A stretch of DNA of 64,000 bases from the NCBI GenBank assembly GCA_019188255.1, contig JAETXT010000003.1:4898001-4962000 (forward strand), given 5' to 3'. The stretch's first letter is position 1; each line of letters opens with the position of its first letter. The DNA comes from Verticillium longisporum. Taxonomy: Eukaryota; Ascomycota; Sordariomycetes; Glomerellales; Plectosphaerellaceae. Positions 3,105 to 25,053 of the stretch are shown piece after piece. Under the pieces are notes generated by a model. It saw only the letters and a program-made list of their open reading frames with translations. It ran no database searches and was not told the DNA's origin. The translations under genes and the position numbers were made by a program.

Positions 3105-3149
3105 AAGTGAACCACTCGCTTGGGTGAACCACTCGCTTGTGGATTACGT
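3105..3149. repeat. Right terminal inverted repeat of Fot1/pogo element
   Basis: This is the inverted copy of 1291-1335 with one mismatch (CCCATGCG on the left, CCCAAGCG on the right). It also contains the doubled 13-bp sub-repeat and is followed by TATATA. Confidence 0.9.
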
Positions 3150-4119: not shown

Positions 4120-5663
4120 ATGACCCGCATCAGCCTCGCCAACAATAGGCCCTCATACTTTGTCAACTTGAAAGAGCTCAGAAACATGATCTCACGTCTC
4201 GAGGGTGACGCCAACTCAAGGGGATCTGACACAGATCAATCTTCTGCTTCTTCGGGCACAACATGGAATCTGCACTATGATACTGCGGTCATTCATGCGG
4301 GGCTCGATAAAACTCCCCGCCATGGAGAGTGTACAGTACCAGTGTTCAACTCAGCGTCCTTTAAGTTTCCCAGCTCGGCTGCTGCCGACGATGCCTTCAG
4401 TTCTGTCCCAGACGTACAGCGCTGGGTATATAGCCGCTTTGGTAACGTATGTTATGCACGTTTCACTTCACAGATTCACACCCCGCTTACAAAGAGCAGC
4501 CAACAAACGATGCATTCGAACGACGCATGGCCGCTCTTGATGATGGCGTCGACGCTGTGTCGCTTGCGTCGGGAGCAGCCGCGACCTTGACCGTCGCCAT
4601 GTCTCTGGCGAGGGTGGGAGACAATGTGATTGTATCCAATTTCACCCATGGAGGAACCTTTCATCAGTTCAAACTCATCATGGCACAAATGGGGGTTGAG
4701 AGTCGATTCTGCAACACCAACGACCTCGAGCGCGTCCGCTCGCTTCTAGATGAACGAACGAAGTTCATCTTCACAGAAACCATTGGAAATCCAAAATTTT
4801 CCGTAGCCGATCTGGAGCCTCTTGCCGAGATCGCCCACGGAGTTCAGATACCCCTTGTTGTGGATGCCACATTTACGGCAGCTGGATACTTCTGCCAACC
4901 TGCACGTTGGGGCGCTGACATTGTCATCCACTCGGCTACGAAATGGATCGGTGGTCATGGTACCACCCTCGGCGGTGTCGCCATTGAAACAGGTCGATCA
5001 GACTGGCAATCCAATGTCTCGCGCTTTCCCCAGCTCCATGGCCGCGAGTTCGGTTCCGACAAGATTGTCGGCACCAATCTCTACGAGGCTCTTGGCTCCC
5101 GAGCCTACATGCAGATGCTTAAGTGGGATTTCATGCGAGACACGGGCGCCTGTCTTGCCGCACCCTCGGCCCAGCAGCTCTGCATCGGTCTTGAAACCCT
5201 GCCGCTTAGATGCGAGAGACAGACACAGAACGCTGATCAACTTGCTCGGTGGCTGCGTGCCCACCCACGAGTGGCCTGGGTTCGATATCTTGGATTCGAG
5301 GATCATCCTGATCATGCGTTGGCGAAAAAGTATTTCACACCGGGTCACGGCTTCGGCTCGGTCCTTACGTTTGGCCTTCAAGGCGGAGCGGCAGAAGGTT
5401 TTGCTCTCATTGATGCATTCAAGCTTGTTACCAACACGCCGAATGTTGGGGACGCGAAAACCATCATCGGGCATCACTGGTCAACGACGCATAAGCAGTG
5501 CAGCCCAGAGGAGATGGAAAATATGGGGGTTTATGAGGATTTGTTGAGGCTTTCTCTGGGTATTGAGCACATCAGTGATATCATTCGGGACTTCGAGCAG
5601 GCTCTGCAGTGTGCGTCTCAAGTTGCTTCGAAGCACATCGGTGCTTCTCCGGGGAGTCTATGA
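4120..5663 (+). CDS. PLP-dependent Cys/Met-metabolism enzyme (O-acetylhomoserine sulfhydrylase/gamma-replacement type)
   Basis: A fold-type I PLP enzyme of the cystathionine gamma-synthase/O-acetylhomoserine sulfhydrylase family, about 496 aa. Exon 1 is 4120-4446, a 53-nt intron is 4447-4499 (GTATGT...CAG), and exon 2 is 4500-5663. Splicing joins YSRFGN to PTNDAFERRM, the conserved block. The PLP lysine lies in HSATKWIGGHG, with VDATFTAAGY carrying the cofactor-binding Asp upstream and a terminal LLRLSLGIEH as usual. The family acts on O-acetyl- or O-succinylhomoserine by gamma-replacement. In fungal secondary metabolism, relatives (LolC, Fub7, CndF) use carbon or nitrogen nucleophiles instead of sulfide. 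The N-terminus is about 60 residues longer than in primary-metabolism enzymes; the in-frame ATG at 4186 is an alternative start. Its position next to the bANK regulator and the metallophore-like genes suggests a biosynthetic role, which is inference; a housekeeping homocysteine synthase is the alternative. Confidence 0.88.
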
Positions 5664-5770
5664 GACAGCATGTATGTTTGATTTCTACGTAATATTTCTG
5701 ATTCTTGGCTCAGAGCCAGTGCAAAATTGTGTTATTGTCATGTAGGCAAGTAATCCTCTCAGCATCCTGA

Positions 5771-6989
5771 TCACAAGACTTGAGCCCCTCCTTCGACAAG
5801 GAGCTCCACGATTTCTTCTTCTTGCAGCCGCACCGCAAGTTCCAGAGGGGTCAGACCTGCTTCATTCCGTAGATCCAGTCTCGCTCCATGATGCAAAAGC
5901 ATGCGTGACATCGAGGCAGACCTACCCCTGACAGCGCAGTGGAGGGGACGATCACCGTTCGTCACATCTCGTGCGTCAACATCAGCTCCGCCACCAACTA
6001 CCAAGGTATGTGCAATGCCCTTGGACCCATTCTTGATGGCGATGTGAAGCAGACTCGCTCCCTGGCTACGAGTGACAGGATCGGACGGCACTTTGTGCTG
6101 TGGCGGATCAGCAAGCTCCAGCTTCTGACTTGTTAGTGAAAATGAGTCTCCAGTGAAACAGGACGGAAAATGAAGCATACATGACGTTTATTCCACTGTA
6201 TGGAACCTGCTTGGGTATCTTCTGGCATGCGACCATTAATGTGTGATGGCGCATGCTACGCGCGATCAACGTCAGTGTGTGACGTTGCTTCGGTATAGGT
6301 GACCCCGTTGAAGCCAGGAAACCCACCGTTTCATCTATCAACAAGCTCGGGGAATGGAATTCAGGCCAAAGTTCATCATAACATCGCCACGTCGAATGTT
6401 GATGATACATCGAAGGTGTATGAGGATACTCAGCTGCCTCCAGAGGCAATGCATAAGGCGAAGGTGTTTCTGACAGAGACGGGGTGGGATAATATGTCTG
6501 TGCGGAGAGATTGGCTAGCATAGCACCCCTTCTAGACGGTGGATGCCCTGCTGCAGCTGTCGTCATTGCAACTCGTCTTGGCGACGGGTGATTCAAATCA
6601 TAGTGACTATCGAGGCCCTCCTGACAGACTGAAGGAGAGTGTAGAATATCGCTTCCAAAGGGGAGTGGGTCATCTTGCCACGAGAGAGGACTCTGTGGTA
6701 TGGGTAAGCTCTGACTACGAAATGCGCTGCTCTGGTGACCTTCCAATGCGGAAATGGTTTGCTCATCGTCCCCGGCAGAACAGGCAGATGTGTCTCCATC
6801 TGGACCAAACTGCTGGGTCAACTTTTGACGAGCGCCTACGCTTGTCTGCGTTAGAAACGTTGCCTATGGCAGTAAAGATGGCTTCGCGTTGTCGTGCGCA
6901 CTGTGGTACTCACGAGACTTTCGTTTGGCGATGCGATTACGCTTGCGAACATGATCTAATTGACAAGAGAGTTCTAATTGCCAGGTCAT
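5771..6989 (-). CDS. bANK transcription factor (bZIP basic region plus ankyrin repeats)
   Basis: Spliced from exon 1 6989-6914, intron 6913-6836, exon 2 6835-6181, intron about 6180-6129 and exon 3 6128-5771 (about 362 aa). The first junction creates a bZIP basic region, RKRNRIAKRKSRARQKL, matching the N-x2-A-x3-S-R consensus. No leucine zipper follows. A Ser/Pro-rich middle leads to three C-terminal ankyrin repeats (LLHIAIKNGSKGIAHTLVVGG, PLHCAVRGRSASMSRMLLHHG and TPLELAVRLQEEEIVELLVEG). This zipper-less basic-plus-ankyrin layout is the bANK type known from TOXE (HC-toxin) and the apicidin regulator, pathway-specific activators of secondary-metabolite clusters. Nuclear action and control of the neighbouring genes are inferred. 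The second intron's acceptor is uncertain by a few bases, because the best-framed acceptor (AAG at 6131-6129) lies very close to the branch-like CTAAC. Confidence 0.82.
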
Positions 6990-7944
6990 GTCTGCCAGGT
7001 CTCGGCAAGATGAAGATGGTCTGCCACTCTGCCCGGGATGGAGATCGTACTGTCGTGTGTTGTGAAGACTGAACGTTGGTGATTTGTATGCTCCAGCGGC
7101 GGCATTAAGGAGTTGTACAAGGGAGAGAGATGTGACCGCGAGTAACTCATGTGCATATGGCCAGATTAAGGGAGTCAGGCTAAGTATTGTTCAATCTGGT
7201 GCCTCGGACGATGATCACATTTCCTGAAAGGTTAACCTTCTCATGGAATTCGGCGGCACGGACATCGTCAATTGCGCAAGATTGAGTGACTACTACAAAT
7301 TGTTCTCAACAAGTCATTGGAAATTTGCGGATCTGCAGCGTAACACCGCATTTCGCTTAGGGGGCGACTTTAAGGGTACTTCCGATTCTGTTTTCCGATA
7401 CCTTCTTATGCACGCATGGTACAAGTGCCTTGGCATTTCTAAATGATAGGAGAACACGACGTGCCGAAAGGTTTGAACAGGTAGTTTGCGGATGCGTCAG
7501 GAGTTGGGAAACCAGACTTCACGCAAAGTCCAAATGCAGAGCCGTCGGAATTGAGTGACAAACCACCAATAGGAGGGAATTGATGACATGAACGAAATTG
7601 ATCATATTTATGTTGAATGTGGCACCAGGACACTTTCGAGCGAGGGGAGAATTACGCAGGCTCAAATCCCTCCTTCTAATCAACTCATTTCAGGATCACG
7701 ACCGCGTGTGACAGAGGTCACAGCAGCCAATAACTGTACGTCCATCCACGCCTGGCTTACGCCCGATGACACAGTGGTGGCTTACTCTGCTGCATGATCA
7801 CCTCCCAGTGCCGTGCGGGAAAACCAGCGCAAACTAGCTCAACTACATGCCTCGAACGCGGGGGTGGAGTCATCCAAGGGGGCCAACCAAGACAGCCGAA
7901 GCAGCGGATGACGGGCCGGAATGCGGTATTGAAGAAGCTTATTG
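6990..7944. other. Intergenic, upstream of the bANK gene
   Basis: 955 bases between two minus-strand genes, holding the bANK promoter side and the ATP-grasp 3' flank. No coding frame with family features was seen. Confidence 0.6.
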
Positions 7945-10164
7945 CTACGTCTTCACAGTTCGTGCTTGCGGACTGCGCCCTTGAAGCCGCACAGGTTCTG
8001 TTGATCCCTTTGGCCCTTCACGCAGCAGCTCTTCGAAACTCTTGGTGAAGCTATCCACCATCGTCAAGGCGTGCTCCCTACTCAGCGACGATCTGACCAC
8101 CCCTGTCGTGAACCACCGCCAGCTACCCTTTCGCCCCGCGTACCAATCGCTGGGCCTCGCTATGGTGATATGATAGGGTACATGCTGCATGATGTCGGGG
8201 TGGCTGCGCCGTATTTCACCGGTTGGATATGCGTCTCCGTCAATCGCGATCCGGGTGATGGGCTGGGGCCCCTTGTCGCTGCCCGCAGCGGACACAAATC
8301 CAGGTATGTTCAGTGCACGCATTTGCGCCGAGGTGACGTCGACAGCTACGTTTGCGAGTGAGACGAAATTCGTTGGGGAGTGCTTGAACGGGATTGACAG
8401 TGCCTCGAATCTGCTCCAGTCGCGTACCGCACAGAGAACCTGGAGGGCCCAGTAGTCGATGCCTGAGGAAAACAGGCTGGCTGTTGAGCTGCCCATGCCG
8501 GGGGCCCTGGCGTTAATCTCGTGCAGAAAGACGGAGAGCTCGTTCTTCTTGTCCTTGGCACTTATGGTGATCGCCTCGAGAACCGGAAACGGCACATCTG
8601 GATGTACGACGTAGTCCATGCTGGAGTTTCTCACTCGGGCTTCGCAGTGGAACACCCCCGAACTGAAGCCTTGGAGCAAGACAGCCTGTTTCATCGCCTC
8701 GATCACAGAGGTTTGCTCGTGCTTCGGTAGACCGGAAGGCGTGTGGGTCTGCGTCTCATTGAATGTACCCCCTTGAGAGCTGGGCGACGTGTCAGCTGAG
8801 CAAGGGAAGTCGTCGACCACCTCGGCGAAGAGGAGACGACCATCACGGAGCACCAAATTTGCATCCACCTCGGGTCCAGCGACGTAGTCTTCTACCACTA
8901 CACCATTGGGACAATCTCGGATCGCCAGGATGCGCGCCACTGCGTCCCGCAGTTCAGCTGCATCATCGGCTCTGAAAACGCCTTCGGATCCTCGGCCGAT
9001 GGACGGCTTGCAGACCACGGGGTATTGTAGCTTCCCACCCATGTCGCCCGTTGTTCCAATCTGATTCTCGAGATCGCTCATTGACTTGACGGCGAACGTG
9101 CTTCCAGTGTCCTGGCCACTGAACATGCGAGTCAAGAATTTGTCCGTGGAAACAGTGAAGGCCTTCACACCTGGGGTGTAAAGGCCCAGCGCCTCAGAAG
9201 CTTGTGCCACACTGATCAGGTAATCATCAGAGGAGGTAAATATCCCGTCGATGGGTTCTGGGAAAGTTCTGACGGCTTGCGCAATACGATCGCCAAGTGT
9301 GGAACCGCTCTCGTCATTGTTCGTCCTCATATCGATCGAGATGAGAGCTTCCTTGAGATGTTGAAATGAAGGTCCCACCGGGTCATCTGCCCACCAATCG
9401 CCCGTCGTCAAAATCACGAGTCGAACCCCAAGTGCTGCAGCAGCCTGCCACCTTGATAGCCAACTTCGGACGATTTGCGGTCCAATAACGAGACAGACGC
9501 GATATTGTCGAATCGCGGTTGGCTGAATCCATGGGAAGGACAGCCGTTGCTCTACTTCCTGTTCGAAAGATGAGATGGACTCTGCAAAGCCGAGGCTACT
9601 CTGAGATCCAGGCGTATGCGGTGATGAGTCTGCCACAGCCTCCGCATTTAGCAAGACGACACCAGATGCAACTTGCAAGGCCCTGGAAATATCAACCCAA
9701 CCGTCAATGAACCCTGTGAACGGACTGATTTTGGTGAAGGGGGAGAGGAAGCTGAACGACGAGGCGACTTGTGGACAACCCAAGAGTCGATACACCAGAA
9801 AGTCGGAGCGCACTGCAAAGCCTTCGTCTTCGGCCAGAAGAAAAACGCAACAAGGTGATTTTGTAGGTTTATCATGCGGACTAGCGTCGTCTTTGGAAAA
9901 TGCGGCTGTCTGGAAGCGTGCTGCCGCGAAGAGATGGTCGAAGGCTCCTCCTAAGAAGCTCGACCTCTCCTCCGTCAAAACAATCTTGTCCTGGTGCGAG
10001 AAGCTGCTTCGATCCTCGATGGTGATACTAGAGCTGCTGGCCTCTGTAGTATCGTCGGAGACGACAATGTCCGGACATAAGTCTTGTGCAGAGACCGGTG
10101 TCACATACACCCTTTTCATATGGTGTTCATGAGAGTCATCACGTAGCAACCACTGACAATCCAC
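7945..10164 (-). CDS. ATP-grasp ligase (carnosine synthase/L-amino-acid ligase-like)
   Basis: A single-exon 739-aa protein. Residues 1-230 are poorly conserved. The middle holds a pre-ATP-grasp Rossmann-like part (VCLVIGPQIVRSWLSRWQ, LVILTTGDWW, IDGIFTSSDDYLISVAQASEALGL). The ATP-grasp fold follows with YPVVCKPSIGRGSEGVF (ATP-binding Lys and Gly-rich loop), VVVEDYVAGPEVDANLVL, FHCEARVRN and HEINARAPGMGSS, the last carrying the metal-binding Glu/Asn pair. This order matches ATP-dependent carboxylate-amine ligases such as carnosine synthase and bacterial dipeptide ligases, which activate a carboxylate as acyl phosphate and couple it to an amine. Substrates cannot be read from sequence. Within this cluster it would be the candidate amide-bond-forming enzyme in place of an NRPS, which is inference. 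The fold assignment is secure. Confidence 0.9.
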   Translation of the reverse strand: MDCQWLLRDDSHEHHMKRVYVTPVSAQDLCPDIVVSDDTTEASSSSITIEDRSSFSHQDKIVLTEERSSFLGGAFDHLFAAARFQTAAFSKDDASPHDKPTKSPCCVFLLAEDEGFAVRSDFLVYRLLGCPQVASSFSFLSPFTKISPFTGFIDGWVDISRALQVASGVVLLNAEAVADSSPHTPGSQSSLGFAESISSFEQEVEQRLSFPWIQPTAIRQYRVCLVIGPQIVRSWLSRWQAAAALGVRLVILTTGDWWADDPVGPSFQHLKEALISIDMRTNNDESGSTLGDRIAQAVRTFPEPIDGIFTSSDDYLISVAQASEALGLYTPGVKAFTVSTDKFLTRMFSGQDTGSTFAVKSMSDLENQIGTTGDMGGKLQYPVVCKPSIGRGSEGVFRADDAAELRDAVARILAIRDCPNGVVVEDYVAGPEVDANLVLRDGRLLFAEVVDDFPCSADTSPSSQGGTFNETQTHTPSGLPKHEQTSVIEAMKQAVLLQGFSSGVFHCEARVRNSSMDYVVHPDVPFPVLEAITISAKDKKNELSVFLHEINARAPGMGSSTASLFSSGIDYWALQVLCAVRDWSRFEALSIPFKHSPTNFVSLANVAVDVTSAQMRALNIPGFVSAAGSDKGPQPITRIAIDGDAYPTGEIRRSHPDIMQHVPYHITIARPSDWYAGRKGSWRWFTTGVVRSSLSREHALTMVDSFTKSFEELLREGPKGSTEPVRLQGRSPQARTVKT

Positions 10165-11043
10165 GGACTCTATAGAAGTTTTAGTTACAAATGCAGCTAG
10201 ATCTTACATCGAAGCATTCACAAGGAAGTCAAAACATACTGGATCCTCGAATGAGAGCAGCCCGAACGCTGTTTGTTTCTCGTGCTGCTGGCATGGTTTT
10301 GATGCCGCAAGAGGAGACTCAATTGTTGATTGTTTTTACTGGGCAGTAGCGACGATCCCCGTGAGTCGCACACGAAGAACTAACTCAAGAAGTCTTCGGC
10401 CAAAACATTTGCTGGCGAGCACATGTGAGCTTGATGGTGTTCATCTTCTTCATTTTCTTCATGGCGTGACCTCACAGATGAACAACCCCACCCCGCCATC
10501 CCGCGCATGTCAGTGGGGGTTTGAGTTGACATGTAGCAATACCAATGCAGCGTCATGCCCATTGGATGTTAGCGTTTGACTGTGCATGAAGCAGCGGCTA
10601 TTCGAGGGGGTTGGCGATTTTCAACGGCTTTGATTGACAGGCTGCTGATCCTGAACATGGGATGTCACATGGGCTGGTGGTGCAAGCCATGTCACCACGA
10701 GCCGGGAGGATACTCAGCCCATCCCTCTCCCCCTTTTCCCCCCTCCACTTCTCCTCACGTTTTCCATCAGTAAAGGAATAGGTTAATGATCATCATTTGC
10801 ACATGCGATGATGAGCTCGTTTGGCAACATGCACTAGCAAAGCCTTACGCGATGTCACTTCTGTGAACTCGAGCGGCCTATTTCACAGTGATGATGCGAA
10901 GTCATCCAAGATATATCTGTTCAGACTGTTGATTGACATACTCGTATATCTAAAGCCTCATCGGGAAAATGCGTAGACACATTCCAAGGGAAGACTAAAA
11001 TGACGATTGTTGCCACGTTGACAGTCTACGACTACACAGGATC
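10165..11043. other. Intergenic, upstream of the ATP-grasp gene
   Basis: 879 bases between two co-oriented minus-strand genes. It contains the ATP-grasp promoter and a pyrimidine-rich stretch near 10724-10760. No gene seen. Confidence 0.6.
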
Positions 11044-13089
11044 TTACCACTCCAGCCTGTTGTCTTCCCTGAGCTCAACATCCCACCGCTCGTTTCCATG
11101 CCACACCTGTTTCCCTGAGTTCAAAGACGCCACAGAAGTCCGGAGCTCACTAATCATAGCGCCCGGACCGCTCGCGAAAACCACGGTAGGACCACGCACT
11201 GTCTCCTCAACGAAGTTCTTCACGAGCATGCCAACATCGGGGTGCCGGCCTACGCAGTCACCTGAGCCCCCAGTCTTCTTGTAAGCAACAACTTCCCTGG
11301 CAGTCGATGCGTCGGTATCGGGTAGTGATGAAGCGGAGCTTGAACCTGTAATTTGATGCGTCTTTCGATCCTCGGAAAGCTTCTCATCTGCATCGGGCTT
11401 GGCGACGGCTTTGTCGTGCTCCTGCTGTTCGCGAGTGATGTAAACCGTGATTTGGATATTGTGCTCGTGAGCAGAAGCCTTGATGAGACCAAGCTCAGCA
11501 TCAATCCAGCGAGCGTCGTCCCGATGACGGACCATCCAGATGAGTTGAACGGCACGGTCAGTGCGGCCGCTCGTTAAGCTTGTGGCACCTTGGGATTGGA
11601 ATGTCTCAAGAATGACCGGAAGCACATATGTGATGCCCGTGCCTCCCGCGACGGCCAGGACGTTGACGCCTTCATCGATTCCGCGGGTAGAGTGTTCACC
11701 ATATGGTCCTTGGAGAATTACTGGCGTGGTTGGCATCGAGGATGACCCCGCGCCCTGCTTCTCGGCAATCCTGCGGGCTGCGAGCTCCGCAATCTTCTTC
11801 GTCTCTCCACCTTTTGCGCGGAAAACATAGGAGTGCTTGACGAAGCTCTCTTTGCTCGACACAGGCAACGAAAGTGGCGTGAAGGGGTGAGATTGCCACA
11901 CGCTGCTGTCTGGGAAGCACAGATAAAAGTGTTGGCCAACGTGCCATGGCGACTGGTTGAAGGTGAAGTCAAGGCGCGCCACGTCGCCGTGTTCTGCGTC
12001 CGGGAACAAGGTCAATTGAGCTTGAGCTGGATGGAAGCCCCAGTCGCCTCGGACGTATTGGTGATGGAGAAGGGCCATGCGCACGAGCCTTGGCAGTCGG
12101 TCGAAGAACCACAATAGCAGCCCGCACAGCATCCAGTCACTAAGAAACTCCCAGTGACCCCAGCAGGTGCCAATATATACCATAGCCAAGACGTAGTGAG
12201 TTTTTCGGAAGAACTCGAACCCCGTGTAGCGGATCATGAAGCCAAGGCTGAGGAACCACATAAGGAGGAGCAGAAACATGGCGCAAAGTCCATAGATCAT
12301 GTACTCCTTTGTGACCCAGTTGACTGCATATTCCGGCTGTGGACCATAGAGTCCGATACAAATGACACACCACACAATGGCATGAAGCACACTCTGAAGC
12401 AAGATGATGTAGCCGACCCAGCGATGGAGGAAGTTGAAAGCCTGGTAAGGGATGCCGGTGAGGAGTGATAGGATAGATTCCCTGCTGGAAAGAAGGACAG
12501 AGAAAGGCGTAATGGCATAAGCAAGAATTCCGATGCGGTTGGACCAAATTCCGGCAGTGTTCTGCTCCTTGTAGACGCCAGGGTGGTCCTTGACTGGTGA
12601 TATCCAAAGGGCATATGTCATCCCGACGAAGGAGAATATGGTCAGGTACACAACCAGAATGGCGAGAATCAGAACTTGCAGTCTGGTTGTGCGGCCGAAG
12701 ATAAAGCGAATCGAGTCGGGGAGAAGATATGAGCGGGCTGTGGCAGCCGCGGCCCGCAGAGGACGGGAGACGACTGCTGGCGACGGTGATTTCGAATGCT
12801 CGGTTGCTGTGAGAGGAGCAGATTCGTCTTCACTCTTATCCGACGTAGTCGTGAAGACGAAAGGCCTGGTACGTCGAGAAAGTAGTGACCGTCTTCCCAC
12901 AGCAACGAGTAGAAGGACTGCACCGGCAATGAGCCACAAAATACCGGAATACACCATCCCGAGGTCGTTGGCCTCCCAGAGAGCATCGAGGTAATCGCAG
13001 TTGGCCTGGTCCGCAGTGCAAGGCAGCGTGCGGGGATGATACCCATAATGCCAGATCTGAGTGGTCTCAACCTCTGCACCGTCAGCCAT
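11044..13089 (-). CDS. Ferric/cupric reductase, NOX/FRE family
   Basis: A 681-aa transmembrane metalloreductase in one exon. It has an N-terminal membrane segment (VYSGILWLIAGAVLLLVAVG), a linker, then the ferric-reductase domain with paired heme histidines in FLHRWVGYIILLQSVLHAIVW and FRKTHYVLAMVYIGTCWGHWE. The FAD site is marked by HPFTPLSL, the NADPH site by AVAGGTGITYVLP and the C-terminal motif by VVFASGPGAM. The cytoplasmic half passes electrons from NADPH through FAD to the hemes and reduces extracellular Fe(III) or Cu(II). It lies 0.9 kb from the CTR copper transporter, the usual partner of a cupric reductase, so a role in reductive metal uptake is a reasonable inference. Metal preference cannot be decided from sequence. 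Confidence 0.92.
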   Translation of the reverse strand: MADGAEVETTQIWHYGYHPRTLPCTADQANCDYLDALWEANDLGMVYSGILWLIAGAVLLLVAVGRRSLLSRRTRPFVFTTTSDKSEDESAPLTATEHSKSPSPAVVSRPLRAAAATARSYLLPDSIRFIFGRTTRLQVLILAILVVYLTIFSFVGMTYALWISPVKDHPGVYKEQNTAGIWSNRIGILAYAITPFSVLLSSRESILSLLTGIPYQAFNFLHRWVGYIILLQSVLHAIVWCVICIGLYGPQPEYAVNWVTKEYMIYGLCAMFLLLLMWFLSLGFMIRYTGFEFFRKTHYVLAMVYIGTCWGHWEFLSDWMLCGLLLWFFDRLPRLVRMALLHHQYVRGDWGFHPAQAQLTLFPDAEHGDVARLDFTFNQSPWHVGQHFYLCFPDSSVWQSHPFTPLSLPVSSKESFVKHSYVFRAKGGETKKIAELAARRIAEKQGAGSSSMPTTPVILQGPYGEHSTRGIDEGVNVLAVAGGTGITYVLPVILETFQSQGATSLTSGRTDRAVQLIWMVRHRDDARWIDAELGLIKASAHEHNIQITVYITREQQEHDKAVAKPDADEKLSEDRKTHQITGSSSASSLPDTDASTAREVVAYKKTGGSGDCVGRHPDVGMLVKNFVEETVRGPTVVFASGPGAMISELRTSVASLNSGKQVWHGNERWDVELREDNRLEW

Positions 13090-13980
13090 GATCGCAAAAT
13101 AGGCCAGGTAAAAATCGAGATTGATGATCGAATCGAAGACCTCAGGGCGTCATGGGAAGATGGCCGATTGCTTTTAACCGACAAATGTTCTTGTCTGGAA
13201 CCTCGTAAAGAATTGCAGAGATATCTGACAGTGTGGAGAATGAATAGTATCGGTGGAAAGCGGAATAGAATGTGCAAACTGCTTTGTATGAATAGTCGGA
13301 ATCATGTTGATGACCCGCGCTCCAGCACACATGTTCCATTGCGAACCAGGTGGTATTTCCTGACAATGACAGGCCTCAAGTCTCCACCTTTTCAACCCTG
13401 AAAACGAAAGAAATCGAGCAGGGTGTAAATGCAGGAGTTCTTGGCGGCGATATTAACAAGCCCTGGCGGTGCCAATGTGACGGATGACGGGGCCAGGCCT
13501 CGAACGCCATGTAGGCTGGACTGGCAATCTAGCTCGCCTGTGGGTGTGGGCGCATGGTTCCGAACATGAGGGACCAAGCCACCGAGCACAATTGAGAAGA
13601 TTATGGTTGGCTTGTTGGTGGTGTATTACAATACCCTACAGGACACCTCGTGGGGGATTCAATTCCTCGGCACGGAGAATGCCACAACAGGCAAGATCTT
13701 CGATGACATACACACTTTCTTTGTTCCCCTGCGGCCTGGCAAGTTCCTTGTGCATGATCAACAGGAACGTCGCACTGTTACGGTATTCTGCACGTTGACC
13801 ACCCCTACGTTGGCCGCGACCCTACAAGATCCCACCGCTCTGCCTGCTTTCATCCAAGGTCAACACCTCTCTTGTTAGATTCTAACATCAACATCGCGCA
13901 ACTTTGAGCTTCGCTTACACTGCCTACTCGCTTTTTATTTGTCCGTTGTTTCTTGCATATCAAGCGGGGCCATCTTCAAA
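13090..13980. promoter_or_regulatory. Shared upstream region of metalloreductase and CTR transporter
   Basis: The reductase (minus, starts at 13089) and the CTR gene (plus, starts at 13981) diverge from this 891-bp region, an arrangement compatible with co-regulation. I found no clear copper-response element (TTTGCTC-type) by eye and no convincing gene. Confidence 0.4.
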
Positions 13981-14696: not shown

Positions 14697-14844
14697 GAGG
14701 GCAATTTTAAATTGTGATTCTTCATCATGGCCAACCTCCTCAGCCTCGGAATCAGCAGGGCTGGCACTTGGAATACCGATACCAGCGGAACGAGTCGGAT
14801 TTTTGGTTGGCCTATCATCGGCCACAATCTACTGTTGATCCCTC

Positions 14845-15808
14845 TCAGATCACTCTAGATACAATTATTGATGTATTAATACTCCTTCCTTTTTCTCCGT
14901 TCATGTGGCATGTCAACACGGGCATGAGCCTCTTCATCAACTTGGGCGAGTTCATTACCGTTGGCTATGGAGGTTAGCACTTGCCGTAGCAGCTTGTTCT
15001 TCTTCAAGTTGATACTCACTGGGTAGAAAAGCGATTTCAGCGAAGTAGACCCCCGAGAAACCATGACGGCTCCGCTGGTCATCCGGCCTGCCACCTCGAG
15101 CAAGACTGCCTCCTTCTCTTCGGCTGTCGAGCCCACTGTGGCGTTGAAGTATACCGCATCGAAAGAACGTAGATCTCTTGGTGCAGTCCGTGCATCGCCT
15201 GCCTCATAGGTCGTGTCCTCGCAGTCTAGTGCGAGCGTGATCATTGCCCGTTGACTCAGTTCTAGCCTTGATGGCAGCAGCTCAACACTGTGGACATGAA
15301 TACGCTCGCCTCGTGCCCGAGCCCAGTCTTGAATCCATATGCACGTCTCCGGCAGGGCACCAGCACCAAGAATAGCAACAGATCGCGGTGTACGTCCCAG
15401 GACAGTCGATGCGGCTGTCCACTCCAACTCCGCGGCATGTTCGTAGAAGGCATGTATTGGGAACCGAGAAAGCGATTTACGTGCCGCTGAAGATTCTCGA
15501 GCATCGGCAATCTCGTTGGCGAACGCGATTTCAAACGCTGCCTCGCATTCAAGGACTGCCCGGCGTGTGCTGGGCATGAGACTGATCACATCTGGGTGCT
15601 TGAGGAGCCGTTGCTCTACATCGGTGTCGACAGTGGTGAAGCCGATGACGCCGTAAAGCTCATTCCAGTGGGGAATTGCGGCGTTGACTTTGTCAACGGA
15701 GTCGAGGGGGTACAAGCTCTCGAGGTGTTCGGTAGCACGCTTGATCTTGCCGATGTGGTGCTGAACCGCAGCAGCAGGGTCAGCAGGAAAGAGCTGCGTG
15801 ACTGTCAT
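14845..15808 (-). CDS. Nicotianamine synthase-like aminocarboxypropyl transferase
   Basis: Exon 1 is 15808-15020, a 55-nt intron is 15019-14965 (GTGAGT...CTAAC...TAG), and exon 2 is 14964-14845, giving 302 aa. The protein shows the SAM-binding loop VAILGAGALPETCIWIQ, FDAVYFNATVGSTAEEK (equivalent to the YDVVFLAALVG block of NAS) and AVMVSRGSTSLKSLFYP. Exon 2 supplies the conserved NAS C-terminus, ending INTSIIVSRVI. NAS enzymes transfer 3-amino-3-carboxypropyl groups from S-adenosylmethionine. Plant NAS makes nicotianamine from three SAM, while bacterial NAS-like CntL makes a staphylopine precursor from histidine. Location is probably cytosolic. Its setting beside a copper transporter, metalloreductase, ATP-grasp ligase and exporter argues for a metal-chelating product. 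The acceptor substrate cannot be told from sequence. Confidence 0.85.
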
Positions 15809-16592
15809 ATTGGGAAAGACCTGTGGGAACGCGAAATTCGGATGATTCTCAAAGCGGGAGGCTGGGGGTGAGGTCAGGATCTCTCTATGCCGGACTCAAA
15901 TAGCCGTGAAGCTATGACTATTGGAGAAATATCACATCGTTGTGATCAGGAATCTCTGCCGCGATTTCTGGCAACGTAACAGGCTATCGCGGCATGTCGC
16001 AGCGTGCTCTCACCAGGTACCTGGCAGAACCGATGACGGCAACAATTGGAAGCTGCCCAAGGGTCTTGTCATGGGGGTCCGATTGTAGTTGCGGAGCTGT
16101 GGTGAAATTACCCGTCCGGTGTATGCAGGGTCAACGTGCTAATACGACAGCTCGGCATGCAAGGTCATAACTTGCTAAATTGGCAGACTTGGCGAGCCCG
16201 AAACTGACCATACCAACCCCAGACGCCGACCAATCAGTAGGGTACCCCCTACGCGACTCTTGAGCACATCTATTGAGTTTGCCAGCCAGTGACTGTGGCC
16301 TGGCGGCCAGCCTGTGAACAGATCCTGAGGCATCCTCAAGTAGGCCCAGGTCGGAGAATACTGTCACGGGCGTAGGACGAAATTTCGCTCAAGGCCTGAC
16401 TGCTGGCAAACTGGTGGCCACTGGCAGGAGGTGGAGCCTTTCTGTTTATGGGTGTGTCATCGACCAACCTCGATCAGCTGGCTTCATGAAGGTTGATGTT
16501 TCTCGGCGTATGACAACCTAGATACCTAACTAGCAGCCAGCCCTTTGAGGAGCACTTCGAAGGCTTAGCAAGGACCATCGTACGGACGCACA
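15809..16592. promoter_or_regulatory. Bidirectional promoter region between NAS-like and ABC transporter genes
   Basis: 784 bp lie between two divergent start codons (15808 minus, 16593 plus), so both are probably driven from here. No specific factor site was identified by eye. Confidence 0.4.
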
Positions 16593-19500
16593 ATGCTGCA
16601 TATCAACCCTTTCAGACCTCGTCGGATACCGGAAGTACCGAGTAGCCGAAGCCCTTCTCCTGAAGAAAGTGCGAGCACACTCAGTCAGCTCATTTTCTCG
16701 TGGCTTAGCCCTCTGCTCACGGTGATTATTAGCCACTTACATTGAGATCACCTTTGTCTACAGCCCACTCAGGTTGACTCTAAGATGTTCATGTTCAACG
16801 CTGATGATCAAAGACCGGTTACAGCAGGCCACTAGAATATGCAGATATCTGGTTCATACCACAAGCACGTTCCGCCAATAACCTGGCGCGGAAGTTACAA
16901 CAATCCTTCGAGGGTCTCATGCTCAACCAACGCCACAATGGATCTCGACGACGCTGGGGCATGCCTTTGCTTGCATGGGGGATTTACGACTCCTTCAAAT
17001 TCGACTTCTGGCTCGGGGGGCTATGCCAACTTATCGAGTCCGTCCTGCAAGCCATGGCTCCGTTCACCTTGCGTTTCCTGATAATCTTCGCCAGAGACTC
17101 TCATGCATACACCGCAGGCTACCAGGACTCTCGGCCACCAGTTGGTCAGGGTGTCGGTATCGTGCTGGCCATTACGGCCATGCAAGTGATGCAAAGCTTC
17201 TCGTCCAGCCACTTTCACTACCGTAGCACATTACTTGGGGGGCAGAGTCGGAGCGCGTTGATTGCTATGGCTTTTTCCAAAGCTCTCCGCCTCTCCAGAC
17301 GGGCCAGAGCGGGTGGCGGGTCTGGTGCAACCGAGGCCACGATGATCCCCGCAACGAAACCGCCATGCCAACCACGAGCACAGTTCTCCAACGAGGGATG
17401 GTCTAATAGTCGCATTATGAGTTTGATTTCCACCGATTTATCGCGCATTGAACAATCGTGCACCACTTTCCATCTCGTCTGGACGTCGCCGATTGCTATA
17501 ATCCTCACCATAACGTTGTTAATTATCAACCTTGGATACAGCGCACTGGCAGGCGTTGCAGTGCTCGTCATCGGCCTCATAGCTTTGACCAAAGTCATCA
17601 AGGTCCTCATACGTCTGAGAGCCGCCGTCAATGTGGAAACAGACCAGAGAGCAGGGCTTACGCAGGAGATACTTCACGGCATCCGCTTCGTCAAATACTT
17701 CGGTTGGGAATCTGCATTTCTTAACCGTCTCCAGGCATTAAGGGCCTCAGAGACAAGTTCGCTACAGATCTTACACATCACGAAAAGTGGCATAGGAGCC
17801 GTGTCGATGGCGCTTCCCATATTCTCAAGTATGGCGGCCTTCTTGGTTTACTCATCTACGAATTCCGGGGCACTGGACCCGGCACTCATCTTCTCATCCC
17901 TAGCGCTTTTCAACAGCTTGAGGACACCTATGAACTGGCTTCCAACATCTATCGGTCACTTGGTTGATGCCTTTGCTGCATTGAAGCGCTGTGAAGCATT
18001 CCTCTTGTCAGAAGAGTCGCCTCCTCACCCTGGCGCAACGCAAGGCCTGGAACAGGCCATCGAGCTTCAAGACGCGACCTTTACCTGGGAGAATCCTCCG
18101 GCTGGAGACGAAGAACAATCGACAGATACTGCAGCCAGAATTCAAACATCCCATCGACTCAAATCGTTGGGCCGCAACTTGTCGCAAAAGCTGAATGGCA
18201 CGTCACCGGCCCGACGCGATGACGAAAAGGCGTCCGGGGAGAGCAGAAAGCCGCCATTTGGTCTCGAAAGGGTTTCCTTGTCAATACCTTCTAAAGAGCT
18301 TGTAGCAGTGGTTGGCTCGGTGGGCTGTGGCAAGTCGTCGTTGCTCAGTGCCTTGGCAAACGATATGCGCCTGGTTCAGGGGACCATGAAGTTCAACTCG
18401 AACGTCGCTTACTGTCCGCAATCCGCGTGGCTGCAGAATGCCACGATCCGGCAGAATATTCTGTTTGGGAAAGATTTCAACAGAGATTTTTACAACCGTG
18501 TCACTCACGCTTGTGCTCTCGAGGCCGACTTTGCATTGCTTCCGCATGGAGATCTGACCGAGATTGGCGAAAAGGGAATCACCCTCTCAGGTGGGCAGAA
18601 GCAGCGCGTGAACATTGCAAGGGCGATCTATTCGGACGCCGGCATTGTCCTTCTTGATGACCCTCTCTCGGCAGTTGATGCACACGTCGGGAATCACATC
18701 TTCAACCAAGCCATCAGCGGTCTTCTCCAAAAGAAGTGCTGTGTTCTTGTCACGCATCAACTACAGGTTCTTCATCGATGTGATCGGGTCATATGGATGA
18801 TGGATGGGCGCATCGAAGCAGTCGGTGAATACGAAAGACTTCTGGAAAGCTCTGCTTCTTTCCAGAAGTTTGTGCAAACGTCAGGCATCGTGAGCTCTCA
18901 CGAGCCACGAGTGAATGGGGACATGGAGGGAAGCACAAGTGTTTCCCACGAAGGCGCATCGGCGCTGAGCGACAATGCCGATGGGGACAAAAAGAAACTG
19001 ATGCAGGATGACGTCAAGGCCGTCAACAGCGTTCCTTGGACGGTCTATCGTGTCTGGATGCAGTCTTCTGGGAGTATATTTAACATAGCTGCAGTGCTGT
19101 TCCTGATGTGCGTTTTCCGAGCGGCGAACTTGCTGACGTCTCTTTCACTGGCCTGGTGGGTATCGGACGCCCATGGCCTCTCCCGCGCATCATACGTGAG
19201 TCGAAACATCTCTTCCAGTCTAACGCCTATCCTAACCTAGAACAGATTGGACTATACGCCGGGCTAGGTGTTGCGCAAGCTGTTCTTCTTTTCACCTTCT
19301 CCATGGTTACCTGCATTGTGGGCACCAGGGCGAGCCAGAAGATGTCCAATGATGCGATGTGGCAGATTCTTCGAGCCCCGATTGTGTTCTTTGACACCAC
19401 ACCTCTAGGCCGCATCATACATCGATTCACAAAGGACGTTGACACGATGGACAACAACTTAACAGACTCCTTCAGGCAGTACCTCATCGTACTGAGCTCC

Positions 19501-20998
19501 TTGCTTGGATCATTCGGCTTCATAATCGCATACTTCCACTACGTCAGTTGGGCTTTTGGCTCCATTCTACCCGTGCGCTACACAGGACGAAGCTGACCTC
19601 GGTGGTGATTAGTTTGCGATCGCCTTGGCTATCGTTTCAGTTGTCTTAGTTCTAGCTGTGTCCTATTATAGATGCAGTGCTCGAGAGTTGAAGCGTCACC
19701 ACGCCATTCTTGATGGGGCTCTGTTCGCGAGGTTCAGCGAGGCGCTCGTGGGCGCGTCCACGATACGGGCCTACAAACGCGAGGAATACTATGTCCGCGA
19801 TATTTATCGAGCCATCGATGACATGGACGGTGCCTACTTCTTGACCTTTGCGAACCAACGCTGGTTGTCCCTTCGACTCGACAACCTCGGCAATATCTTG
19901 TCCTTCACGACCGGGATGCTTGCTGTGACTACAGCACTGGTCGTGTCACCTAGCATCACCGGGCTTATTCTAAGTTATAGTCTGAGCCTGGTCGGTATCA
20001 TACAGATTACGGTCCGGTACTTTGCCGACGTTGACAACTCCATGTCCAGCACTGAACGACTGCACCAGTACACATCCTCACTCGCCCGTGAAGCCTCGCT
20101 CGAGGAGGACGCAGCTCTCCGACTCCGATCAAGCTGGCCAGAGAGCGGCGAGATTGTATTTGAGTCAGTGCAAATGAGATACAGGCCGGAGCTGCCCCTA
20201 GTCCTTGACAACTTCTCATTGACGATTCGCGGGGGTGAGCGCATCGGCATCGTTGGGCGCACAGGTGCCGGCAAGAGCACCATTCTCTCGACTCTGTTCC
20301 GCCTCACGGAGCTAAGCGGTGGCCGTATCATGATTGATGGGGTCGATATCGCTCAAGTTGGCCTGCACAGTCTACGCTCAAGGCTCGCCATCATACCGCA
20401 GGACCCTACGCTGTTCCGGGGAACGATCCGTTCGAATCTGGACCCATTTGGCAGACACAGCGATCTTGAAATGTGGAACGCCCTTCGTCAGGCGCATCTC
20501 CTTCCTCGAGAACCCTCGTCTGAGGCCAGTGGCCTCGCGATAGACGCAACATCCGATGCTACCGACCATAGTCTTCGCGACATACGAATAGCCGCTCACT
20601 CCCCAGAGAACAACAAGGAGACGCGGATCACCCTCGACGCCATTGTGGAAGAGGAAGGTCTGAACTACTCTCTCGGCCAGCGACAGCTGTTAGCCCTGGC
20701 GCGAGCGCACTTGAGGAACGCACGTATCACACTCATTGACGAAGGGACCAGTAGCGTAGACAGCGCGACTGATGTCTTAGTGCAAAAGACTATTGCTCAA
20801 GAACTTAGCAGCGGCAAGACTCTAATCGCTATCGCTCACCGTCTGCGCACCGTCCTGTTGTACGATCGGGTCTGCGTCATGGACCAGGGCCGTATTGTCG
20901 AGCTCGGTCCGCCGCTGGAGCTTTGGGAGCAGGCGGGGATATTTCGAGGGATGTGTGACAGGAGTGGTATCACTCAAGAGGACTTTTCCGATGGATGA
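16593..20998 (+). CDS. ABCC/MRP-type ABC transporter
   Basis: Four exons: 16593-16721, 16814-19195, 19246-19542 and 19613-20998, about 1397 aa. The short first exon reads SPEESASTLSQLIFSWLSPLL, the conserved start of membrane domain 1, and joins to TGYSRPLEYADIWFIP. NBD1 has Walker A GSVGCGKSSLLSAL, signature LSGGQKQRVNIARAI and Walker B VLLDDPLSAVDAH. The second membrane domain includes LGRIIHRFTKDVDTMD. NBD2 has GRTGAGKSTILSTL, YSLGQRQLLALARAHL and ITLIDEGTSSVDSATD. As in other ABCC proteins, NBD1 lacks the catalytic Glu after Walker B (Asp instead). There is no extra N-terminal TMD0. The family exports organic anions and conjugates or loads them into vacuoles. Here it is the candidate exporter or sequesterer of the cluster product. 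The donor of the first intron (GTGATT) is the least certain junction. Confidence 0.93.
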
Positions 20999-21203
20999 GA
21001 TGGGGTCGATACCTAGTAGTGTCGCGAGATGGCGTATGATGTCTAACTCGTGCTATGCAGTCACCCATGGCCCCCAGACACTTGAATGGCCAATCTCAAC
21101 ATGTGTTAAACCAGATCATCATGATCAAGAAGCAACATAATTTTTGAAGGCTCGAAAGTCCTTGACGTATCCAGCCCTTTGGGGATGGCTGGAATCCAGT
21201 CGT

Positions 21204-21983
21204 CTAATAGTATCCATCAAAAGTATCCTCACGCTTCGCAGACACGCTCCTGACAGCTTCCTTGATCGGCAAATCACCCTCACCGGGACCCAGGATATCG
21301 AACGCCAGGCCCGTGGTCCACTCATCCTCGATCGCAGCAAAGAGGACAGCGGCGACGTCGGCCCGGCTGATCATACCCTGGAGACCGACCTTGCCCGCCC
21401 TTATTCGACCCTCGGCCTCCTTCTCTGTCAGACCACCAGGCCGAATGATGGTATACTCGAATCCCCGGCTCCGGTTGTTGACACGCAGGTCCTTGTCGGC
21501 CTCGAATTTGGCCCTCAGCGCCGGCTCAATAACCCCCCACATGCGGTCGCTCAGCTTGATGTCTGCCTCACTGTACCATTCAGGCGTCGGCTTTTTCCGG
21601 TCGCGCACATCGGCAGAGCTGATGGCGACGTAGCGCTTCCGCGGAATCTCAGCCTGAGCGAGGGCATCGATGACCTTGATGGCGCCGTCACGGTCGACCT
21701 CGACAGGGGCGCGGGGGTTGCTGGCGGCCCACACGACGGTGTCGGGCTGGGTGCGCTCGAGGATCTTGACAAAATCTTCCACTGTGCCGGAGACTAGGTC
21801 TTGAACAATGGGATGAGCGCCAATGGCGATGAGCGAGGGAACCTGGTCTGGGTTGCGAATGATGCTGTAGACAGCGTGGGCGGGGTTTGCGGCGGTGAGG
21901 AGCGACGTGAGGTGACGTGCGGTTTTGCCGTTCCCGCCGACAATCAGAGTCGTCGGAGGGTGAAACAAACAGGCGTCTCCCAT
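21204..21983 (-). CDS. NAD(P)-binding Rossmann protein, atypical SDR (NmrA/NAD(P)H-binding type)
   Basis: A single exon of 259 aa. The N-terminal TTLIVGGNGKTARHL carries the glycine-rich dinucleotide loop; TVVWAASNP, KRYVAISSADV and YTIIRPGGLT are the usual landmarks of the NAD(P)H-binding extended/atypical SDR group. No clear catalytic Tyr-x3-Lys pair stands out, as is common in atypical members. It is convergent with the ABC transporter (205 bp between stops). It could be a reductase or epimerase for the cluster product; by analogy with opine-metallophore pathways that use an NAD(P)H enzyme after NAS it is worth testing, but it is not related by sequence to opine dehydrogenases as far as I can see. 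Confidence 0.82.
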   Translation of the reverse strand: MGDACLFHPPTTLIVGGNGKTARHLTSLLTAANPAHAVYSIIRNPDQVPSLIAIGAHPIVQDLVSGTVEDFVKILERTQPDTVVWAASNPRAPVEVDRDGAIKVIDALAQAEIPRKRYVAISSADVRDRKKPTPEWYSEADIKLSDRMWGVIEPALRAKFEADKDLRVNNRSRGFEYTIIRPGGLTEKEAEGRIRAGKVGLQGMISRADVAAVLFAAIEDEWTTGLAFDILGPGEGDLPIKEAVRSVSAKREDTFDGYY

Positions 21984-23355
21984 GGTGGCAGTTTGTTATA
22001 CTACACAGTTGTTGTCCCAGGTCTGTGATAGATGGCAATTAGACAAAGGGCGAAGGTTGAGAGACCACCTGGCCATGACGGAATACAAGCATGACCCAAC
22101 TACCACATCAGCCACCTACCAAAGGGATACCCCGCCACGAAGAGGAGGGATGTGGGGCATGTGGTTTAGTAATCCGTCTCACCGAGTGACAAGAATATCT
22201 TGTTCCATGAGGAGTGTTGAATTTGTGCTTCACATTATGCGATTCAATGCTTCTGATACCTAACCTTATAGATTTGTGACAGCACATGACGACAAAGTTC
22301 TGGTGCCGCGATTATGCTTGCTGCCTGGAATACTGACCGACGGTGCCCATGCCTTCGATTTAGCGCCATCGCGGCAACGGGGCAGTGAGAACGATGTCTG
22401 TCAAACATTCTGGGAATAGTTTCCCTCGCGCCACTCTCTCATAGATCCAACCGCCACGGGAATGACTTCCCTGCTTATAAGTGCTACCCCGAGATTATCT
22501 GTTCCCTTTGCGCCTGGCAAACTCGGCAATATCAGCTTAGTCGACACAGTCATCATGGAGCCCTCGTCGCGACCTCAGAGGGAGACAGAACAAGCCTATG
22601 AGCCTCGAGGCAACGTCTTGGGTACCTAAAATGGCAAAGGCCTCCTGCATCTGGTCGAGACGGCTGGTGACTGTGTGACTGTGACCGGGTAGTCTACGCC
22701 TTCCGGTGAAGTATCTAATATTGGGATTTATCATGGCCTCCTAGCGTGCTCGTCGGACTCACGGACCATGACGACTCCCTTACTGATACATAATTTTAGT
22801 TTACAAGCATTTCCAGACGCTGGTGACTGGGAAGCCGCACTTTTCGATGTCAAAAATCTTGCTCATGTTCGCGTTGACAGCCGACTTAGTCCCGATAAAG
22901 CCTTTGCAGGAATCGCTCGTCGATACGCGCAAACTTTACAACGTCTTGTACTTTCTGCATCGCTTCAATTAAATTCATGGCCAGAAACAGAAACAGTGAT
23001 CTGTAATATTGCCCACTCAACTCTCACGACAATCGTCGCGCCCTGTCACAGACTGTTAAAGCTAGCAGCTTAGATACGCTTTACAGGCGGGAGCAAGCTG
23101 GGGCTGAACGGACACAGCATACTCCGCGCACCAACGGCGCTACTGAAGGGCGCTGGTCACTCACTTGTCAAAAACTTAACAATCGCTGCTCTCCGACTCG
23201 TCAATTCCATTGACTCGAACCGAGGCGCATTCCCGCGAAGTGTATTAATAGTTGTTCCTTCGCCAGATAAGGTAGCCGTGAATCAAACGATGTTGAATTA
23301 TTTCAATGATCACATCCACAGAGCCACCATCAAACGCTAGGCATCAAAAAATACC
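21984..23355. other. Intergenic between divergent SDR and P450 genes
   Basis: 1.37 kb holding both upstream regions. A frame at 22768-23073 has no family features, and I do not call a gene here. Confidence 0.5.
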
Positions 23356-25053
23356 ATGCCGGAAGTAACTCTTCTATCTGTTGCCGCAGCGCTGGTTGCG
23401 GCCCTTTCTTACCTTGTCAACGTCCTGGTTGTAGAACCATTGATCACCAGCCCACTGAGCGATATCCCCGGACCAAAGTCTTTTGCCCTCACCCGCTGGC
23501 GACTGGCTTGGGAAGACTGGAATGCAACACGTACGCGGACCATCCTTCGATTGCACTCCGAATATGGCCCGGTAGTGCGCATCGGGCCAAATGAGGTGTC
23601 TTTCAACAGCCCGAGTGCATTGCGGACCATCTACGGGCCCGGCAGTCGATTTGGCAGGACGACATTTTACCGCATGTTTGATGTGTACGGCGAGCAGAAC
23701 CTATTCACATTCCATTCGACGAAGGAACATGGCAACAGGAAGAAACTACTTTCCCATGCCTATTCAAAGTCGGTTGTGCTGAAGGATCCAACGACACGCC
23801 TCGTGGAGGAGAAGGCCCGACAGTATCTTGACTTGATCAGCACTGAGCCACAGGGCATCAGCGATGTCTTCCTCTCGATGCACTACTACTCTCTCGACAA
23901 CATCACTGCTTTTGTCTACGGACAACACGGGTCGACGCGTGCCCTGCAGGGGTCGAACAATGATCGAGCCTTGATTGACGATATCTTGCACCCATCTCGC
24001 CGCCGGCTATCGTGGTTCTTGGTGCACTTTCCATCATACACAAAGTGGCTGTACTCGTGCAAACCATTCATGGGCCGGATAGTAAAGCCGATCCTGCCTA
24101 TGCAACAGCCGACTACTTATACCAGCATACGGAGATTCGCGTTGCAAGCTTTCCAGAATCTCAAATCGGCGCAGGAGGACTTGAAGGTTTCGGGGGAGTC
24201 GAGCAATGCTGAAGACTCATCCATAGTCGGCCAGCTATGGCGCCATCACGAGTCGCAACGGCCCGACGGCATGAATGACATGCAATTGGCTTCGGAATGC
24301 GCAGACCACTTCCTTGCGGGAATAGATACGACGAGCGATACCCTCATGTTTCTAGTTTGGGCGCTCTCTCTTCCCGAGAACGAGAAATTCCAGGCCAAGT
24401 TGAGAGACGAGGTTACGGGCCTGACAGGGGATGCTCTTAATGAGCATGGATATCCACGCGTGGACGCCTCAGATCGATGCACATATCTCAATGTGGTCAT
24501 CAAGGAAACCTTGAGACTTTACGCGCCCCTACCGAGTACCGAACCGAGATCCATGGATGCCCAGTCAATAGTCGACGGCTTCCAGATTCCACCCAACACT
24601 GTTGTCGGGATGTCGCCTTATATCATTCACCGTGATCCGACGGTGTTCAAAGACCCCAGGAGGTTCAACCCGGAGAGGTGGCTAGGGCCGGAAGCGGTTG
24701 AATTAAACCGTCATTTTTGGGCGTTCTCGAGTGGTGGAAGAATGTGTATCGGCATGCAGTAAGTGAAGATTCCAGCTGTCGTTCCAGCAGACAGTTTGTG
24801 GGCTAACTGCCGGTAGCTTGGCCATGGCGGAAATGACCACTGTCACTGCTGCTCTCTATGGCAAGTACAGGACATCCATAGCGCCAGGGTTCGAAGGTAT
24901 AGCTCCAGGCATCACTGCACGTGTTGAGGTCTTTTCAGATGACCGATTCGCAAAGACTCAGGTTAGTCCTGCTCTCGTTCACAACCAAGCTTCCAGTACT
25001 AACCATATCAGGAACACACTTGTCTCGTTCAATTTCATGAACTGAGTAAGTGA
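23356..25053 (+). CDS. Cytochrome P450 monooxygenase
   Basis: Exons 23356-24758, 24817-24961 and 25012-25053 give about 529 aa, a full-length microsomal P450. It has an N-terminal hydrophobic anchor (LLSVAAALVAALSYLVNVLVV), hinge DIPGPKSFALTRW, YGPVVRIGPNEVSF, I-helix AGIDTTSDTLMF, ExxR in KETLRLYAPLP, PERW, and the heme loop FSSGGRMCIGMHLAM whose Cys ligates iron. The third exon is only 42 nt and gives the family-typical end EHTCLVQF. It belongs to the same broad group as the broken P450 at 1-880. It is at the right border of the metallophore-like genes and may tailor the product, although neighbourhood alone does not prove membership. Confidence 0.92.

Follow-up and report, generated by a model that had tools for sequence, protein, structure and literature searches.

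Genes at the locus

We analysed 64,000 nucleotides of the Verticillium longisporum genome (contig JAETXT010000003.1, positions 4,898,001 to 4,962,000 of the forward strand; G000:C10:4898001-4962000, hereafter the window), in which genes for a nicotianamine synthase-like protein (NAS) and an ATP-grasp ligase lie among genes for metal uptake. The genome searched comprises 72.01 Mb on 16 contigs, and V. longisporum is an allodiploid hybrid with two subgenomes (PMC8406199). A Pfam scan of 17 translated pieces from the window recovered all nine families that a sequence-only reading of this DNA had named. Seven of the nine genes are the main subject here:

4186..5663, + strand: pyridoxal phosphate (PLP)-dependent gamma-replacement enzyme, O-acetylhomoserine-lyase type; exons 4186-4446 and 4500-5663; 474 aa; Pfam Cys_Met_Meta_PP, 8.7e-101
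5771..6989, - strand: bANK-type regulator, a basic region followed by ankyrin repeats; Pfam ankyrin, 5.2e-18; ATG at 6989; partial intron model
7945..10119, - strand: ATP-grasp ligase, carnosine-synthase/L-amino-acid-ligase type; single exon, 724 aa; Pfam ATP-grasp_4, 8.2e-10, and ATPgrasp_N, 8.8e-10
11044..13089, - strand: ferric/cupric reductase (FRE); Pfam Ferric_reduct with FAD and NAD domains, 5.4e-25; open frame, start at 13089
13981..14696, + strand: CTR copper transporter; Pfam Ctr, 2.4e-27; start MSHGSHSDDSDLQCQM at 13981; probably three exons, partial model
14845..15808, - strand: NAS; exons 15808-15020 and 14964-14845; 302 aa; Pfam PF03059, 3e-19
16808..20998, + strand: ABCC-type transporter; Pfam, two ABC membrane and two nucleotide-binding regions; 5' end and introns partly modelled

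FRE and CTR form one divergent gene pair, NAS and ABCC another. An alternative upstream ATG at 4120 would lengthen the PLP enzyme by 22 aa; the V. dahliae and V. longisporum homologues begin MISRLEGD. The earlier assignment of a bANK regulator is backed by a basic stretch, RNRIAKRKS, which precedes the ankyrin repeats in the copy of each subgenome. The spliced NAS protein is identical to V. longisporum HYQ45_012893 (P0001). At E 1e-3, NAS has two genome-wide matches, one per subgenome, as does ATPgrasp_N, and CTR has 23 exon-level matches. NCBIfam models named neither NAS nor the NAD(P)-binding protein that lies further to the right. Neither a nonribosomal peptide synthetase (NRPS) nor an opine dehydrogenase was found among the 17 scanned pieces, and the reading of the locus as a small-molecule cluster based on NAS, with genes for metal uptake, is supported.

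Seven genes in one divergent block

The second NAS copy was located on contig C1 within a region collinear to the window, and the order PLP, bANK, ATP-grasp, FRE, CTR, NAS, ABCC is the same in both subgenomes. The PLP enzyme on C1 is 99.6% identical to V. dahliae P0107, and the same figure holds for P0002, which has the C1 NAS sequence, against V. dahliae P0004. Because the C1 copy is V. dahliae-like, we take C1 as the D subgenome at this locus and the window as the A1 side.

Silent divergence (dS) between A1 and D was computed over 17 segments. It was 0.72-1.38 in PLP, bANK (two segments), ATP-grasp, FRE, CTR, NAS and the N-terminal half of ABCC (two segments), and outside this group 0.30 in the C-terminal part of ABCC, 0.18 in the NAD(P)-binding gene, 0.12 in a P450 gene and 0.04-0.23 in another four segments on the right; on the left, a P450 fragment gave 0.28. 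Together with the identity of 1-kb bins, these values delimit one feature:

3485..19900, no strand: divergent haplotype block (1-kb-bin identity and dS between homoeologs)

Mean bin identity was 0.779 in the 16 block bins versus 0.929 in 70 flank bins taken from the 50 kb left of the window and from the window outside the block as far as 40 kb; two flank bins fell below 0.85 (Mann-Whitney p 4e-10, with adjacent bins not independent). By sequence, the seven genes from PLP to ABCC, at about 3.5-19.9 kb, are one evolutionary unit. The dN/dS values in the block, 0.05-0.30, suggest that both versions of the cluster are maintained by selection. Decay of the D-subgenome copies was considered and rejected: the matched parts of PLP, ATP-grasp, CTR, NAS and ABCC contain no stop, and the single stop in the FRE match is ahead of the start codon. 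For bANK this check covered the ankyrin part and the basic region. The D copy of the ATP-grasp gene has Leu where the window copy has Met1.

The A1 and D NAS proteins share 90.1% identity, and V. albo-atrum NAS is 86.4% identical to either one, so the two cluster versions may have split not long after the V. albo-atrum line. The origin of the block can be old balanced haplotypes or introgression, the comparison being one of two sequences.

The right edge of the block falls within ABCC, at 19.8-20.0 kb, and by the divergence test two genes that had been counted as cluster members (21.2-25.1 kb) are therefore neighbours:

21204..21983, - strand: NAD(P)-binding protein; Pfam NAD_binding_10, 1.9e-30; outside the block
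23356..25053, + strand: cytochrome P450; Pfam p450, 8.2e-43; outside the block; end as given in the sequence-only reading

Between these genes, identity drops to 0.73-0.75 in two of the three 200-base bins at 22201-22800, with flanks of ~93%; low identity is thus not wholly limited to the block. On the left, a DDE_1/Tc5-HTH transposon with inverted ends (1287-3153) obscures the edge of the block; the C1 homoeolog has no copy of it. At least ~40 other near-full-length copies in the genome are 99-100% alike, and the element was therefore recently active. Further right, at 42001-56000, the window is AT-rich (GC 16-23% in six of seven 2-kb bins) and resembles repeats altered by repeat-induced point mutation or a centromere-like region.

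The three putative biosynthetic enzymes

The window NAS scores 69.8 bits against PF03059 (curated cut-off 27.1) and has the N-terminal helical part and S-adenosylmethionine (SAM) domain of the fold. In a profile comparison, E93 aligns with the catalytic Glu of MtNAS (E81; E77 in AtNAS1), whereas a single-sequence alignment is one column off; the second Glu of the family is also conserved. When bacterial and archaeal genomes were scanned with a pattern built on the NAS alignment, 45 stretches matched, and tblastn identified none as a relative.

Residues K371, E410, E534, N536 and R538 of the ATP-grasp protein, which we take to be ATP and metal ligands, are invariant across 33 sequences. The protein is predicted to be of the carnosine-synthase-like/L-amino-acid-ligase type, with putative formation of a dipeptide amide bond. 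It shares ATPgrasp_N, ATP-grasp_4 and the fold with carnosine synthase and the L-amino-acid ligases BL00235 and BacD, but has an additional N-terminal part of ~200 aa, and identity to a bird carnosine synthase is only 26% over 38%. Some of its fungal relatives are labelled carnosine synthase by their source.

For the PLP enzyme, the query was the V. dahliae homologue, P0107, which shares 93.5% identity with the window protein. Its nearest solved structure is FUB7, its PLP lysine motif is retained and it does not reach the cut-off of TIGR01326, O-acetylhomoserine/O-acetylserine sulfhydrylase (442.6 vs 495.1 bits). The D-subgenome copy is labelled lolC2-like by its source. A midpoint-rooted tree was built from 119 of 120 listed sequences, P0217 (291 aa) being below the 330-aa limit. 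In it, 32 sequences (P0107-P0137 and P0204) form a monophyletic clade with support 1.0, separate from the other 87; most of those carry the name homocysteine synthase or O-acetylhomoserine lyase, and the FUB7 cluster (P0205) is among them. The features that set the clade apart include Y137H (29/32), in the Y/H-G-G-T stretch that is usually YGGT, and N210A (32/32), giving VDAT for VDNT. The enzyme resembles the LolC/FUB7 gamma-replacement enzymes in being of the O-acetylhomoserine PLP type, but its clade, marked by Y137H and N210A, is separate from that of FUB7.

Linkage in other fungi

Outside Verticillium, linkage was judged from equal lengths of the contigs carrying the matches and from locus tags, and for PLP it was compared in 67 of the 120 listed rows. 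Co-occurrence of NAS and ATP-grasp genes in other fungi, an expectation of the sequence-only reading, was found in three further genera: 4 of 16 NAS matches share a contig with an ATP-grasp gene, namely those in Microdochium nivale, Achaetomium macrosporum, Pyricularia sp. (PspLS_01703, 01707) and Pyricularia grisea (PgNI_09244, 09240). NAS and PLP share a contig in two of the 16 (Chaetomium sp. and one metagenome contig), and ATP-grasp and PLP lie together on at least five contigs, including those of Fonsecaea erecta (AYL99_01777, 01779, 01788) and Beauveria bassiana. All three together were seen in no genome outside Verticillium among the matches compared. Because the genes are linked pairwise elsewhere without the full trio, the pathway appears partly modular around NAS, ATP-grasp and PLP. 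The conserved order in the second subgenome and the NAS/ATP-grasp linkage in three genera point to more than chance.

Promoter elements and the metal

Footprinting between the homoeologs revealed a paired element in two promoters:

3823..3866, + strand: ATGCAGGGTCA-N22-ATGCAAGGTCA, PLP promoter
16123..16167, + strand: ATGCAGGGTCA-N23-ATGCAAGGTCA, shared NAS/ABCC promoter

ATGCAGGGTCA and ATGCAAGGTCA are 33 bp apart in the former and 34 bp apart in the latter, and both sites are conserved in the two subgenomes. Taken singly, the motif was counted 91 times in 72 Mb and its reversed control 17 times. The paired element occurs four times, in every case in a PLP or NAS/ABCC promoter of the cluster, and its reversed control is absent. 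Because the pair is exclusive to these promoters, PLP and NAS/ABCC, which are 12 kb apart, are probably controlled by one factor. A promoter word search without footprinting returned only two 9-mers, each in three promoters, and Tox-box, SRE, HapX and Zap1 patterns formed no coherent set in the cluster promoters.

Copper control by Mac1, whose core is TGCTCA (PMC11563359), was tested and is unsupported. The NAS/ABCC promoter contains two cores, and the other four of the five promoters (FRE/CTR, PLP, bANK and ATP-grasp) contain none, which is weak evidence alone given a TGCTCA background of 0.75 per kb. TGCTCA is likewise missing within +-1.5 kb of the cluster CTR loci, while 14 of 14 other CTR loci examined carry at least one somewhere in ~3.4 kb (16 of the 23 matches were fetched, some overlapping); against the background, its lack over ~3.4 kb is only mildly unusual. 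Two other CTR loci, L010 and L011, probably one per subgenome, both have a pair of TGCTCA 10 bp apart upstream and are candidate true Mac1 targets.

The zinc regulator ZafA needs a CARGGT core for binding, within a 15-bp ZR consensus, DYYVYCARGGTVYYY (PMC6070888). The paired element has the CARGGT core in both A and G forms. In the core-gene promoters, CARGGT is conserved between subgenomes in 5/8 cases versus 56/409 and 34/254 for permuted words, a post hoc count since the element itself was found through conservation. In the ZafA flanks, each of the four paired sites departs from the consensus at 5-6 of 9 positions. Ten ZIP upstream stretches were examined (from 26 ZIP matches): eight have a site with 0-2 misses, one has only sites with 3-4 misses and one lacks CARGGT. 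The ATGCAGGGTCA 11-mer also occurs at G000:C6:1307672 and C16:3051426, ~0.3 kb before a zinc-transporter ZIP match and possibly in its 5' coding part.

Copper as the simplest answer, as given earlier, is not supported, with four promoters lacking TGCTCA and a ZafA-type core in the element. Because CTR and FRE are in the seven-gene unit, copper would nevertheless be the most direct cargo; zinc-linked control is also considered.

A putative pathway and its alternatives

On balance we lean towards a seven-gene cluster for a nicotianamine-kind metallophore with an added amide-ligation step. We do so because of the gene families found, the order that they keep in both subgenomes, the divergence that they share, the pairwise linkage elsewhere and the cis-element common to PLP and NAS/ABCC. 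In the proposed pathway, NAS would move 3-amino-3-carboxypropyl units from SAM onto the amine of an amino acid. The PLP enzyme would make or add a similar four-carbon unit from O-acetylhomoserine, a step proposed because LolC couples O-acetylhomoserine to the nitrogen of proline and thereby performs the aminocarboxypropyl transfer for which NAS uses SAM. The ATP-grasp enzyme could then form an amide bond between the product and another amino acid. ABCC would export the product, or store it in the vacuole; FRE would reduce the bound metal and CTR take up the released ion, and bANK may be the switch for the cluster genes.

Several observations weigh against this pathway. The catalytic Tyr of NAS (Y107 in MtNAS, Y106 in AtNAS1) has Y122 nearby, yet the alignment sets E127 opposite Y107, and the AtNAS1 motif VGMD is VGST in the window protein. 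The FRE/CTR, bANK and ATP-grasp promoters lack an exact copy of the element common to PLP and NAS/ABCC, copies with one mismatch at 10545 and 13852 are not matched in the D subgenome, and the dearth of Mac1 cores noted above belongs here as well. By the contig comparison, ten of the 16 NAS matches lack a partner. Two of the ten come from V. longisporum itself, with the partners in the window; V. albo-atrum, V. dahliae and Fusarium are among the rest. For some of these the cause may be a difference between assemblies, a gene-model gap or a short contig, and for some a true absence. No PLP link turned up in Pyricularia or Microdochium among the rows compared, and the 16 NAS matches include none from Fonsecaea, Beauveria or Glarea.

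The same architecture might instead serve zinc, with a ZafA-like factor inducing a zincophore pathway in zinc starvation while CTR and FRE hold the copper balance. Bacterial NAS-type products are zincophores, and the CARGGT core with its post hoc conservation between subgenomes would fit such control. The flanks that the paired sites miss are, however, largely present in the ZIP upstream stretches, the sole cluster-type site near a ZIP gene pair may be in a 5' coding part, and no ZIP is among the Pfam-scanned cluster pieces; we regard zinc as unlikely, though it deserves serious weight. It is less probable still that the product is an antimicrobial or antimetabolite, such as a dipeptide that contains azetidine or aminobutyrate, FRE and CTR then protecting the producer from copper stripping. 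NAS relatives of known product make nicotianamine-type chelators (PMC10248798), and FRE and CTR belong to the seven-gene unit.

Plant and fungal NAS enzymes make nicotianamine from three SAM (PMC10248798), and one could suppose that the window NAS yields nothing more than nicotianamine, used to handle metal inside the cell, with PLP only feeding homocysteine/SAM and ATP-grasp being unrelated. With a PLP clade so well separated from homocysteine-synthase-type sequences and changed in active-site residues, and with NAS and ATP-grasp sharing contigs in three further genera, we find this very improbable. A chance neighbourhood of unrelated metal and metabolism genes would agree with the members not being all together in other fungi, but seven genes with one exceptional divergence history, and two promoters 12 kb apart with a paired element otherwise absent from the genome, leave it scarcely credible.

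Relation to known systems

That no described fungal pathway resembles the locus, as the sequence-only reading had it, was too strong a claim. Pseudogymnoascus destructans has a copper-responsive cluster (CRC, VC83_01834-01838) of a metalloreductase, a major facilitator superfamily (MFS) transporter, an opine dehydrogenase, a SAM-utilising enzyme and a P450, for which a metallophore has been proposed (PMC12113139). Four of its five genes go up on copper withholding and down on overload, the P450 also changes, and the SAM-utilising enzyme is homologous to one in opine-metallophore operons (PMC12113139); we read this enzyme as NAS-type. A FRE metalloreductase and, on that reading, a NAS-type enzyme are what the two clusters have in common. 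The CRC differs in its MFS transporter, opine dehydrogenase and P450, and its five genes include no ATP-grasp, PLP, CTR or ABCC gene. Its copper response was measured. The window cluster has a different enzyme set, with ATP-grasp and PLP where the CRC has the opine route, and with CTR added.

The bacterial opine metallophore systems of staphylopine, pseudopaline and yersinopine likewise use a NAS-like aminobutyrate transferase of the same fold (CntL) and have an exporter nearby; they differ in having an opine dehydrogenase where the window has ATP-grasp and PLP enzymes. The nicotianamine synthases of plants, moss and Neurospora share PF03059, the catalytic Glu and the second Glu with the window NAS, which differs in its VGST motif and in being clustered with ligase, PLP and transport genes. 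The crm isocyanide cluster of Aspergillus and Fusarium is also a fungal copper-linked small-molecule cluster, but with an isocyanide synthase core and, in Fusarium, Mac1 control; none of the biosynthetic enzymes named there (PMC11563359) matches those of the window.

No pathway with this exact enzyme set, an ATP-grasp ligase and a LolC/O-acetylhomoserine-type PLP enzyme included, was met among the open-access papers searched, which yielded nothing on fungal NAS with ATP-grasp or on lolC with ATP-grasp. Matches for Verticillium with nicotianamine synthase were judged unrelated by their titles and abstract starts, and the main text of a published survey of 25 V. dahliae clusters does not mention nicotianamine (PMC6502550). 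A wider proposal, possible but doubtful, is that the locus represents a third fungal metallophore route beside siderophores and isocyanides, distinct from the Pseudogymnoascus opine-type cluster. It would combine aminocarboxypropyl units from NAS and a LolC-like enzyme, a carnosine-synthase-like cap and its own reductase, importer, exporter and regulator, in two anciently separated haplotypes that cross species borders in the genus.

The locus-specific jump in divergence poses a separate evolutionary question, the persistence of two old versions of one metal cluster. If the metallophore reading is true, the vascular wilt fungi and several other ascomycetes would hold a metal-scavenging system that cluster predictors keyed to polyketide synthase, NRPS or terpene cores can miss. 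It would provide a possible new amide-ligated nicotianamine-like scaffold and a defined gene set for the acquisition of copper or zinc in metal-poor plant sap.

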